Source of the DNA: Solirubrobacteraceae bacterium
GTDB lineage: Bacteria > Actinomycetota > Thermoleophilia > Solirubrobacterales > Solirubrobacteraceae
Length of the DNA: 64,000 bases
Direction of reading: 5' to 3'
Assembly: GCA_017882405.1 (NCBI GenBank)
Contig: JADGPO010000045.1
Location: forward strand, 10,492-74,491
Shown: piece after piece, positions 11,361 to 29,314 of the stretch
How positions within the stretch are numbered: the first letter of the stretch is position 1
Layout: the number at the start of each line of letters is the position of its first letter
Made by a program: the position numbers and the translations under genes
Notes under the pieces: model-generated
The model's database searches: none
The model's input: the letters and a program-made list of their open reading frames with translations, nothing else
Told to the model about the DNA's origin: nothing

Positions 11361-12527
11361 CTACTTCTGGATCTGAAAGAACAGCAGGCCGGAGCGGTCG
11401 ATCGAGCTCGGTCCGTGAGACTGCACGGTCGGGCCCACGCCGCCCTGGACACCGAACGAGAGCCAGTCCGCGGGCTGCCAGACGAGCTGGGTGCCGGCGC
11501 TCAGTGACTCCTGCGAGGTGCCGCCGCTGACGTTCTGCCCGGCCGTCAGCTGCGCCCAGAAGCTCAGCTGCAGGTTGGCGGGCAGCGCGATCACGTAGGA
11601 CTCCTGACCGCCGAAGCTGACCGTGAACTGCTTGGTCGTGAGGCTGTACTGCACCTGCGCGAAGATCTGGCGCTCCTCGCCGCTCTGGTTATTGGCGTGG
11701 CGCTGCATCGTGTAGGCCGCCACCACCTGGTTGACCCACTCGTGCAGGGCGTCGTTGGGCCCATACGGCGTCGTGTAGTAGTGGCGGACGTCCCCGACGC
11801 CCCCCTGCACGCCCAGGTGCTCAGTTTCGCCACCGGCCTTCGCCGGGGGAGTCGGCGCCTCGGGGGGACCCATGGGCGCCGGGGCGGTCGGGCCGCCGTG
11901 CTGTCCGCGGTTCTCTCCGGCCAGCCAGACCTCCACCTCGGCACCGTCCGTCGACCCGCTGGAAAGTCCGGTGTTGAACCGGTCCTCCGCAAACCGTTTG
12001 GGCCCGATCCACTGGATCAGGGCGTTCTTGATCGTCTCCGCACGGCCGATGGCCTCCCCCGAGGGGTCGTCCCCGGACGCCTTGGGCACCACGTCGATCG
12101 TGACGTAGGCGATGTCACAGCCGGTGAATGCGGTCACGATGTCCTTGCACACCTGGTCGAGCGGCATCTTGCCGGCAGGGCCGCCCCACTTGGCGATCTG
12201 ACGGGCCTCGTAGGAGCACCTCAGGTCCGCGCCCGTCGCCGCCGGCTGGCGCGCGAGCACGCGCCGCGGCCGGTCGTCCTCGGAGAGCTCGGCCTCGGAA
12301 GCGCCGCCGCAGGTGCAGCGCCCCGCGCACCGGCACAGCGTCCGGCTCGAGCCGACGATCGAGCCGACCGCGCTGTTGCCCGCCTGGCGCTGGAGCGCGA
12401 GCAGCGCCGCCGGACGCCCCGCCCGGGCCGCGCGCAGCAACGACCCGCCGTGGCCGCCACGGTTGTCCGTGACCGACTGGTCGGAGGACTGCTCCAGGTC
12501 CCGTGAGACGTTCTGAGTGCCGCGCAT
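11361..12527 (-). CDS. Contractile-injection-cargo-like protein with LQR.AGN.AV signature and OmpA-like region
   Basis: A 388-residue protein I cannot name precisely. Residues 42-58 read LLALQRQAGNSAVGSIV, the N-terminal signature repeatedly found in proteins linked to extracellular contractile injection systems (eCIS), often with DUF4157. A cysteine cluster CRCAGRCTC follows at 65-73. Residues about 105-205 (for example VTIDVVPKASGDDPSGEAIG then RAETIKNALIQWIGPKRFAE) resemble an OmpA-like fold. A Pro/Gly linker leads to a beta-rich C-terminal half ending LFFQIQK, reminiscent of barrel-like strands. There is no signal peptide, which fits delivery by a non-Sec route. No sheath, tube or baseplate genes are in the window. 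The ATG at 12525-12527 was chosen because the upstream extension is arginine-rich and gene-unlike. Confidence 0.75.
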   Translation of the reverse strand: MRGTQNVSRDLEQSSDQSVTDNRGGHGGSLLRAARAGRPAALLALQRQAGNSAVGSIVGSSRTLCRCAGRCTCGGASEAELSEDDRPRRVLARQPAATGADLRCSYEARQIAKWGGPAGKMPLDQVCKDIVTAFTGCDIAYVTIDVVPKASGDDPSGEAIGRAETIKNALIQWIGPKRFAEDRFNTGLSSGSTDGAEVEVWLAGENRGQHGGPTAPAPMGPPEAPTPPAKAGGETEHLGVQGGVGDVRHYYTTPYGPNDALHEWVNQVVAAYTMQRHANNQSGEERQIFAQVQYSLTTKQFTVSFGGQESYVIALPANLQLSFWAQLTAGQNVSGGTSQESLSAGTQLVWQPADWLSFGVQGGVGPTVQSHGPSSIDRSGLLFFQIQK

Positions 12528-26792: not shown

Positions 26793-27228
26793 ATGCGCCT
26801 GCGATTCATCGCGCTGGTCGTCGCGTTGGCCGGCACGACGATCGCGCTCACCGGGACGGCCGAGGCCGCGCTCAAGGTCACCTGGATGCCGGGGGTGAAA
26901 TCGGCCGGCACGCCTGCCCGCTACGACAAGGTGGGGGTGATCAAGGTCGGATCGGCGCGCGCGCAACGTGCTCGTGATCGAGCCCGGCAGCTCCGCCGGT
27001 GGGGCCTCCTTCGTGCCCCTGGCCCAGTGGATCGTCTCCCGCGCGAAGAACTGGCAGGTGTGGTCGGTGGAGCGGCGCGAGAACCTGCTGGAGGACCAGT
27101 CCGAGCTGAACCTCGCCAAGCGCGACGGCGCGACCGCGACCCAGGTGTTCGAGACCGCCTCGCACGACCTGTGGGAGGAGGTGCTGCCGATCGCCGAGCA
27201 TGACGCCGACCGTCGCCTGGACGCGTAA
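26793..27228 (+). pseudogene. Frameshifted secreted alpha/beta-hydrolase-like gene
   Basis: The gene opens with a signal peptide (MRLRFIALVVALAGTTIALT GTAEA) and MPGVKSAGTPARYDKVGVIK, then loses frame in a GCGCGCGCGC run at about 26957-26966. The next frame continues NVLVIEPGSSAGGASFVPLA and WQVWSVERRENLLEDQSELN, which fit the first strands of a secreted alpha/beta hydrolase, and ends early at 27226-27228. Two defects are therefore visible: a dinucleotide-slippage frameshift and loss of the C-terminal two thirds, including any catalytic Asp and His. The run-length error could in principle be a sequencing artefact, but the truncation cannot. Confidence 0.7.
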
Positions 27229-27278: not shown

Positions 27279-27764
27279 ATGACACAGGCCTGGCACCCGG
27301 TTGCGGTGGCCGGCGGGACCGTGCGGGTGATGCTCCCCGAGGGCGAGGATCTGGAGGATCACGAAGGGATCGTCTCGTGGTCTCCGGCGCCCGAGTCCGG
27401 GCGCTTCACCGTCCTGCGCGGCGCCGCGCAGGACGGCGACGGCGACGAGCTGCTGGCCGCCGAGCGGTCCGACGGCGAGGTGGACGTGGAGCACGACTCG
27501 AGCGCCGAGCGCGGCGGCCTCCCGGTCCGCCACCTGCGTTATCGCTCCCGACGGCACACGCCGCGGGTGGTGCTTGATCGTGGCTCGGAAGGGTTGGAGC
27601 ACGGGGGCGACGAGGACGTCGACTCGCTGACCGACGTGCTCTTCGTGCGCGACGGCAACACGATCGTGCGGGTCGGCTACACGGTGCTGGCGTCCGCGCC
27701 GAGCGAGACCCGGGACGTCCTGGCCGAGACGCTTGACCGGGTTCGGATCGGCAACGAGCCGTGA
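27279..27764 (+). CDS. Small acidic protein coupled to the metalloprotease cargo gene
   Basis: A 161-residue acidic protein with no recognised domain. Its end overlaps the GTG start of the downstream metalloprotease by 4 bases (GTGA), so the two are co-translated. The pattern of a short beta-rich N-terminus (GGTVRVMLPEGEDLED), a polar middle and a terminal TDVLFVRDGNTIVRVGYTVL plus a helix ETRDVLAETLDRVRIG is similar to DcrB/DUF1795-type folds, which in other secretion systems act as effector chaperones. That comparison is my inference from the layout of strands, not a detected homology. Confidence 0.75.
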   Translation: MTQAWHPVAVAGGTVRVMLPEGEDLEDHEGIVSWSPAPESGRFTVLRGAAQDGDGDELLAAERSDGEVDVEHDSSAERGGLPVRHLRYRSRRHTPRVVLDRGSEGLEHGGDEDVDSLTDVLFVRDGNTIVRVGYTVLASAPSETRDVLAETLDRVRIGNEP

Positions 27765-29314
27765 GCGCCCGCGTCGACCGGGAGCGCAAACCGGCCCGCC
27801 CCGCCGCTGCGCGGCCCGTCGAGCGCTCGGCCTCTCCGGTCGGACCCGAGGCCGTGCTCGCGCTGCAGCGCCACGCCGGCAACGCCGCGGTGGCACGGCT
27901 CCTCGCGCGCCAGGGCGCCCCGGCGGCCACCGCGGCTCCCGCCCACGCCGACTGGAGCAACCCGGCCAACGCCCAGACCACGGCCGCGGCCACGCGCGCC
28001 CGCCTGCTCACCCAGCTGCTGCCGTTCATGGCCGCCCATCGCGACCCGATCGTCCGTAACACGGCCGAGCTGTTCACCGGCACGACTCCGCTGCTGACGA
28101 TGGACGCGATCACCAAGCGTCCCGATTCCGCCCTCCAGGTCGCCAAGCCGACCAATCCGGCCTGGGTCACGGCCCGCCCCCACGATGCCTACTTCTATGG
28201 GACGACGATCGCGCCGGCGAACGTCCACTTCATGGAGCCGAACATGATCGGCACCCTCAAGGGGACCGTGATGTACGTGCGCGGCCACGACTCCTCCGGC
28301 GACCCGCAGTCGCTGGACGAGATCGCGGGGGTGGTCACGCACGAGTGCAGCCACTTCTTCGTTAGCCAGTACGGCGAGCTGCCGGCCAGCCAGAACAACG
28401 CCAACAGCTATGACCGCTACGCCGACGAGTTCCGCGCCTACTGGGTCCAGTACCACGGGATCGCGTCCGGCCTGAGCGACGCCGACAAGGTCAAGAAGAT
28501 CCGCGAGCACCTGGTGGGCACGTCCGGCGACCCCAACTCCGGCTACTCGAACTTCCACGCTGCGTACTTCGCTGCCGGACCCAACGCCTTCAAGACGGCC
28601 GTGGACGCGCTCGCCGGACCGGTCGGCTACAACCTCACCAACTCGATTCGCCTGCACCGGCTGTGGCTGCTGTTCGGCCAGCAGGCGAGCGGCACGGCGA
28701 CGATCGACGACCTCGTGCTGGCGATCGACGCGTTGCCGGCATCCGAGCGCCAGGAGGCGGCCGGGGCCACCCTGCTCACGTCGCTGATCGCCAAGCTGCC
28801 GCCCGCCGACGGCAAACGCGTCCGGCGCGCCCTGGATGCGCCCACCGTCCCCGAGTACACCCAGCAGCTCAACCCCGCCAAGAGCGCGGCGATCGCCGGC
28901 CTGCTCAAGGCGATCGTCGCCGCCGGCGACGACGAGATCAAGAAGGCCTACGGCGCCCTCGGCGCTCGCGACCGCGAGGCGGTCGCGATGAATGCCGCCT
29001 TCCTCGCCTACCTGGACTTCCATCTGACCGACGCCGCCACCAAGGCGTGCGTGTACGCGATGGTGGCCAGCCGCGACGCCGGGCAATACGACGCGATGGC
29101 CGCCTTCGTCAGCTCGCTACGCAGCGCCAAGGACGAGAACGACCTGTTCGGCATCTCCTCGGCTCCGTCCTATGTCACCGACGCCATGGACAAGCTCACC
29201 GACGAATCCCGCTGGTCGTTCTTCTCCTGGGCGCGCAACGGGGCGCTCAAGCAGTACGTCGACGCGCTGCCGGCGAAGGTCGCGGACGAGATCCGCGAGC
29301 GCCTGCGCGACTGA
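27761..29314 (+). CDS. HExxH metalloprotease with eCIS-cargo-like N-terminus
   Basis: A 517-residue protein. Residues about 30-50 carry AVLALQRHAGNAAVARLLAR, the signature found at the start of many eCIS-associated proteins. The central domain contains GVVTHECSHFFVSQYGEL, a HExxH zinc-protease motif (near residue 197), and about 30 residues later YADEFRAYW, whose Glu is well placed as third ligand as in gluzincins. The C-terminal 200 residues are helical with no assigned domain. No signal peptide. This layout suggests a toxin or effector loaded into an injection particle encoded elsewhere. Enzyme activity and delivery are inference; the metal motif and N-terminal signature are seen directly. 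Confidence 0.85.
   Translation: MSARVDRERKPARPAAARPVERSASPVGPEAVLALQRHAGNAAVARLLARQGAPAATAAPAHADWSNPANAQTTAAATRARLLTQLLPFMAAHRDPIVRNTAELFTGTTPLLTMDAITKRPDSALQVAKPTNPAWVTARPHDAYFYGTTIAPANVHFMEPNMIGTLKGTVMYVRGHDSSGDPQSLDEIAGVVTHECSHFFVSQYGELPASQNNANSYDRYADEFRAYWVQYHGIASGLSDADKVKKIREHLVGTSGDPNSGYSNFHAAYFAAGPNAFKTAVDALAGPVGYNLTNSIRLHRLWLLFGQQASGTATIDDLVLAIDALPASERQEAAGATLLTSLIAKLPPADGKRVRRALDAPTVPEYTQQLNPAKSAAIAGLLKAIVAAGDDEIKKAYGALGARDREAVAMNAAFLAYLDFHLTDAATKACVYAMVASRDAGQYDAMAAFVSSLRSAKDENDLFGISSAPSYVTDAMDKLTDESRWSFFSWARNGALKQYVDALPAKVADEIRERLRD

Follow-up and report, generated by a model that had tools for sequence, protein, structure and literature searches.

Can a gene pair belong to an extracellular contractile injection system (eCIS) when no gene for the injection particle lies near it? 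The question is raised by a 64,000-nucleotide stretch of contig JADGPO010000045.1 from a Solirubrobacteraceae bacterium, referred to here as the window. The pair consists of a gene for a small acidic protein (the partner) and a gene for a putative zinc metallopeptidase with an eCIS-type leader (the effector). We consider it likely, with a probability of about 0.62, that the pair represents an orphan eCIS cargo protease and its dedicated partner, and that the particle is encoded elsewhere in the genome. This reading is preferred because the leader is associated with eCIS genomes and because a distant relative, G238, has the pair and the particle on one contig. The features of the pair are as follows, with residue numbers referring to the effector:

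27279-27764, + strand: small acidic partner gene, ATG start, 161 amino acids
27761-29314, + strand: effector gene, putative zinc metallopeptidase with an eCIS-type leader, GTG start, 517 amino acids
27761-27764, + strand: GTGA stop/start overlap from the partner gene into the effector gene; the same overlap is found in G238
27839-27922, + strand: effector leader VGPEAVLALQRHAGNAAVARLLARQGAP, from profile and pattern, with two short predicted helices (residues 29-39 and 41-51)
28340-28354, + strand: HECSH zinc motif (residues 194-198; H194, E195 and H198), in predicted helix 185-204
28424-28438, + strand: DEFRA (residues 222-226; Glu223 is the candidate third zinc ligand), in predicted helix 217-229
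28634-29311, + strand: all-helical C-terminal part (residues about 292-517), from structure prediction

An earlier sequence-only reading had described a 517-residue protein with the N-terminal signature of eCIS-associated proteins, coupled through a GTGA overlap to a 161-residue acidic protein, with no particle genes nearby, and each of these points held up. The core of the signature, ALQRHAGNAAVARLLAR, spans residues 34-50 and has the form ALQRxxGNxAV; the partner has a net charge of -15 and a pI of 4.66; and no particle gene in the window was matched by a sheath profile, the eCIS-core profile or nine particle proteins of a relative. The same queries matched two control eCIS loci, although some of the proteins did not match both of them. 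The eCIS-core profile search also detected no gene for a DUF4157 (eCIS_core, PF13699) protein in the 64 kb.

The leader is widespread in the effector family, where the form L[QEH]xxxGNx[AS] occurs in 54 of the 67 members; the other 13 comprise 11 with short or variant N-termini and two in which eCIS_core replaces the leader. The strict leader pattern is found twice in the window and not once in the six-frame translation of 1,554,702 background bases (80 loci). Effector alignments were made with 37 sequences (A1) and with all 66 relatives plus the window protein (A3), and the leader profile (A4) has 28 columns from 32 segments that were chosen by a leader regular expression, which biases it toward that pattern. 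All leader counts are lower bounds, as at most 6 (order), 3 (class) and 21 (phylum) first-look candidates were scored per genome.

Among 232 genomes of the nearest order, the A3 profile found no full-length relative and gave N-terminal-only matches in 12 (profile positions up to 134, mostly 5-70). The sheath was found in 11 of these 12 leader genomes versus 10 of the 220 others (Fisher 2e-12), and eCIS_core in 11 of the 12 versus 9 of the 220 (Fisher 9e-13). In a sample of 396 genomes of the phylum, the A4 profile gave 50 matches in 17 genomes; the sheath domain PF17482, present in 34 genomes overall, occurred in 15 of the 17 leader genomes versus 19 of the 379 others (Fisher 4e-16). These p-values are inflated by kinship, and G188-G194 may be one clade. 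All 17 of the phylum leader genomes contain eCIS_core; the leader lies outside an eCIS_core protein in 14 of them, 12 of which have the sheath. The exceptions to the link between leader and sheath are G628 and G791, which have no sheath match, and G039, which has a leader and neither sheath nor eCIS_core. The G039 leader protein (C203:254-427) presumably has a peptidoglycan-binding-like tail, from our reading of its sequence.

By position, 11 of the 50 matches lie in eCIS_core proteins, 6 have a sheath or core gene no more than 30 kb away, 7 share a contig with such a gene at a greater distance and 26 are on other contigs, the last being possibly due to assembly breaks. When inspected by eye the leader is followed by several kinds of sequence, with repeats in related genomes (for example, L090, L091, L093 and L108). 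Judged from sequence, the leader is an N-terminal module that is portable between proteins. A separate observation concerns G193, a 9.3 Mb genome from the order of G001, in which 16 leader matches and 5 sheath-domain matches were counted and which may hold a large and scattered cargo repertoire.

The sequence-only reading had also expected eCIS genes in this or related genomes, and G238 agrees with that expectation. This genome (about 3.4 Mb; contig C1, 3,370,274 bases) contains the one full-length effector relative in a class sample of 399 genomes and is the only searched genome with such a relative. Its partner gene lies at 194080-194568 and its effector gene starts at 194565 (contig coordinates computed from L159), so that the GTGA overlap is kept. 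The G238 effector is 35% identical to that of the window, and the two partners are homologous by profile comparison (E 4e-13). An eCIS cluster at 2.376-2.393 Mb on the same contig encodes eCIS_core, AAA, sheath, tube, spike, gp25, baseplate J and tail I proteins; the tail fiber and tail terminator were not identified in this cluster. The pair and the cluster are 2.18 Mb apart along the contig; were the contig closed and circular, the opposite route between them would measure about 1.2 Mb. With no particle genes in the window and this distance in G238, neither pair lies in or near an eCIS operon.

The leader is also related to DUF4157 by position and by replacement. In 11 of the 50 matches the leader directly precedes eCIS_core; the two share a strand, are no more than 400 bases apart and have open frames of equal length, so the N-terminal module of the effector is one that it has in common with eCIS_core proteins. 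The second strict match in the window belongs to a further protein:

11361-12527, - strand: second leader protein, 388 amino acids if the ATG at 12527 is used, from the leader pattern
12336-12419, - strand: leader GRPAALLALQRQAGNSAVGSIVGSSRTL of the second protein, from the leader pattern and profile

This protein has no HExxH motif and has a CRCAGRCTCGG cluster behind its leader, and no sign was found that its family and the effector family are related. Its family (25 listed rows including itself, from 7,990 candidates scored) has the leader in 8 rows, eCIS_core in 13, both in none and neither in 4, with the leader counted by regular expression and the core by precomputed Pfam matches; some of the four rows with neither module are evidently short at the N-terminus. 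Because family members carry one module or the other, the leader and eCIS_core are considered to swap in two families, that of the effector and that of the second protein. A reversed order was seen at L165 (G441 C36), where a frame of 897 amino acids from about position 930 has eCIS_core followed by the leader ERVLALQRTIGNRAVSTLLQRSE.

Two other explanations of the leader have to be weighed against these data. The effector could be a conventional zinc protease, cytosolic or secreted, that is unrelated to eCIS and resembles leader proteins by chance or lineage history. The 64 kb without particle genes would fit this explanation, as would the housekeeping-type neighbors in the window: a peptide-transport permease, a binding protein, a zinc-type dehydrogenase and a further gene that we take, from reading the sequence, to encode lysyl-tRNA synthetase. 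It is made very improbable by the lack of the strict leader in 1.55 Mb of background, the leader-sheath association in two genome samples, the interchange of leader and DUF4157 in two families and the presence of both pair and particle genes in G238.

Alternatively, leader proteins may associate with the eCIS without being injected, with roles in assembly, baseplate docking, release or regulation, and the protease may act in the producing cell. DUF4157 is an eCIS marker and eCIS-associated toxin (EAT) domain according to PMC8213781 and PMC11297309, the first of which treats its role only as a hypothesis. Streptomyces DUF4157 proteins associate with spike or baseplate proteins (PMC11126660 and PMC13277306). 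The second of these papers proposes that Sle2, a small DUF4157 protein, links the effector Sle1 to the baseplate, and an N-terminus of the eCIS-associated type is thus not in itself a sign of injection. A cargo repertoire is a better fit to the occurrence of up to 16 leader matches per genome with several downstream kinds by eye, and to the 33 of 50 matches that lie more than 30 kb from sheath or core genes or, possibly through assembly breaks, on another contig. We therefore regard an uninjected role as improbable, and orphan cargo remains the preferred reading.

The effector itself belongs to a family that is unnamed in Pfam and NCBIfam, in line with the earlier suspicion that the family might be undescribed. 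No match above the cut-off was obtained for the effector in either database, a PDB sequence search also gave no name, and the 517-residue protein did not match eCIS_core in Pfam at E values up to 10. Scoring of 7,996 candidates gave 66 relatives, all annotated as "hypothetical protein" at most and one of them from a Solirubrobacteraceae metagenome-assembled genome; no relatives were found in the genome-contig scan, in viral contigs or in plasmids. The origin of that one relative and the presumed lysyl-tRNA synthetase gene of the window, which is 83% identical to a Solirubrobacterales metagenome-assembled genome, fit a probable source among Solirubrobacterales-type actinobacteria. Several weak Pfam matches were set aside as below the cut-off or due to chance: MgtE_N (E 0.069) and Smoa_sbd (E 0.17) for window proteins, and Pam17 (11/67, best E 0.0015) and Peptidase_M48 (6/67, best E 0.0089) among the effector relatives.

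The HExxH motif and downstream DEF glutamate that had been noticed in the sequence are present, as HE.SH and DEFRA, in all 67 aligned sequences (33-100% identity to the window protein), with the zinc-motif residues invariant. An AlphaFold2 model from the 67-sequence alignment (mean predicted local distance difference test score 88.7) has low confidence at residues 1-26, followed by the two leader helices at modest confidence (block means 50-65), a mixed domain that holds the zinc motif and a helical remainder. The HExxH motif falls within the modeled helix 185-204, and Glu223, which is invariant and in the helix 217-229, is a candidate for the third zinc ligand. Foldseek searches against PDB and viral models gave no confident match for the effector, a result that does not prove a new fold.

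The role of the partner depends largely on its fold and gene arrangement. The partner had no Pfam or NCBIfam match above the cut-off and was likewise unnamed by the PDB sequence search, and it is confidently predicted to have a Mog1/PsbP-like fold, with a structural match over most of the chain. This fold is common to the Eag chaperones and some of the immunity proteins of type VI secretion systems (T6SS). A DcrB/DUF1795-type Pfam match was obtained for none of the 15 family members in the partner alignment, so the partner does not qualify as an Eag protein by sequence profile; this alignment (A2) contains 15 of 17 relatives, with the near-identical P0069 and the 94-residue piece P0074 left out.

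The main rival for the role of the partner is immunity: by binding and blocking the protease, the partner would shield the producing cell or its kin, and the two proteins would form an eCIS-delivered antibacterial toxin-immunity unit. The predicted fold would fit a chaperone and an immunity protein alike, and on this point the adaptor half of the earlier proposal of an orphan effector-adaptor pair could not be separated from immunity; the orphan half is supported, in that the leader tracks eCIS genomes and DUF4157 proteins and the G238 pair is an orphan as well. The Foldseek ranking places DcrB (1), EagT6 (23) and SciW (28) ahead of the immunity proteins Tsi3 (34) and TplEi (45), and in the two genomes examined the partner gene is the upstream member and overlaps the effector start. 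Chaperone genes upstream of their effectors are common in T6SS. According to PMC3482391, a notable share of toxins of the Photorhabdus virulence cassette (PVC) type have no adjoining immunity gene. We judge immunity to be unlikely, and the partner to be probably a dedicated chaperone or adaptor, because of the upstream position, the gene overlap and the DcrB/Eag-like predicted fold.

Among the genomes searched, the partner is seen only beside this effector. In a set of 18,935 frames its profile has matches in the window and G238 alone, and in a search of 30 leader genomes it has a match in one; a role as a general adaptor for leader proteins was dropped on account of this restriction. Overlaps of -4 with upstream frames are found at several other leader loci; when the overlapping upstream frames at 30 loci were screened by third-position GC content, a crude filter, no frame from a locus other than the window and G238 was retained. 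At L112, a small frame upstream of a different leader gene and ending at about 1261 on the leader strand is presumably of the SRPBCC/START type, from our reading.

For orphan cargo, the following mechanism is suggested. The effector would be directed to the particle by its N-terminus, which is basic and disordered and carries the ALQRxxGNxAVxRxLAR leader. Residues about 62-290 would act as the predicted HExxH + Glu peptidase, and the helical C-terminal region may serve to bind either the partner or a target. The acidic partner, encoded first, would most likely bind the effector as a chaperone or adaptor and may keep it folded or inactive until loading.

Four known systems can be compared with this arrangement. 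Like the DUF4157 toxins, the leader is found in eCIS genomes, where it precedes eCIS_core in some proteins and is replaced by it in some relatives; unlike them, the effector lacks eCIS_core and has its own HExxH domain after the leader, ending in the invariant DEFRA. The N-terminal signal peptides of PVC are described in PMC11495950 as 50-70 disordered residues that function in loading with the ATPase Pvc15. The effector likewise has a low-confidence basic N-terminus before its fold and the G238 cluster includes an AAA ATPase, whereas the leader in the window is defined by a short motif that is conserved and predicted to form two helices.

The partner has the same predicted fold as the T6SS chaperones EagT6 and SciW and its gene adjoins that of the effector. 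Clients of Eag chaperones have N-terminal transmembrane domains (PMC12881460), whereas the effector has none by eye and the partner is tied to eCIS-type cargo rather than T6SS. PsbP/MOG1-like genes beside T6SS toxins have been proposed as adaptors, and none is entered in the PVC row of a table in PMC3482391. Finally, in Sle1-Sle2 of the Streptomyces contractile injection system (SLP) an actinobacterial effector likewise has its own small partner gene, but Sle2 belongs to the DUF4157 proteins and its gene lies next to those of the particle, whereas the window partner has a Mog1/PsbP fold and the pair is an orphan.

A broader proposal, which we hold tentatively and at somewhat less than even odds, is that ALQRxxGNxAVxRxLAR serves as a portable address tag by which many proteins encoded at scattered sites, up to 16 per genome, are recruited into actinobacterial eCIS, and that it takes on the task otherwise performed by DUF4157, with some orphan cargos having a dedicated chaperone of a Mog1/PsbP fold that would then be common to T6SS and eCIS loading. 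No published description of the leader motif was found in searches that would miss motifs in figures, written differently or in subscription papers, and literature searches found no description of a Mog1/PsbP-fold eCIS partner. Cargo of eCIS is usually sought near particle genes or through the DUF4157 domain. A leader that tracks eCIS genomes on genes distant from the particle would expose cargo missed by both approaches and offers a direct way to test the function of DUF4157 and its N-terminus, and a Mog1/PsbP-fold partner would connect eCIS loading with Eag-type chaperoning.

The leader does not occur in every eCIS setting. Of five plasmid loci around a DUF4157 match, four lack it by both strict and loose patterns, three of these four having annotated particle genes, and the fifth locus has one loose match. 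The conjugative-typed plasmid pWB1 of Rhodococcus sp. WB1 (L082) carries an eCIS cluster that includes a DUF4157 protein, and eCIS clusters are also present on linear Streptomyces plasmids (L081 and L085).

In the window, two overlapping frames on the + strand (26793-27203 and 26968-27228) lie just upstream of the pair. The first gave no match in Pfam and starts with a signal-peptide-like sequence, and by eye the two look like one short secreted-protein gene that is broken between frames (26793-27228).
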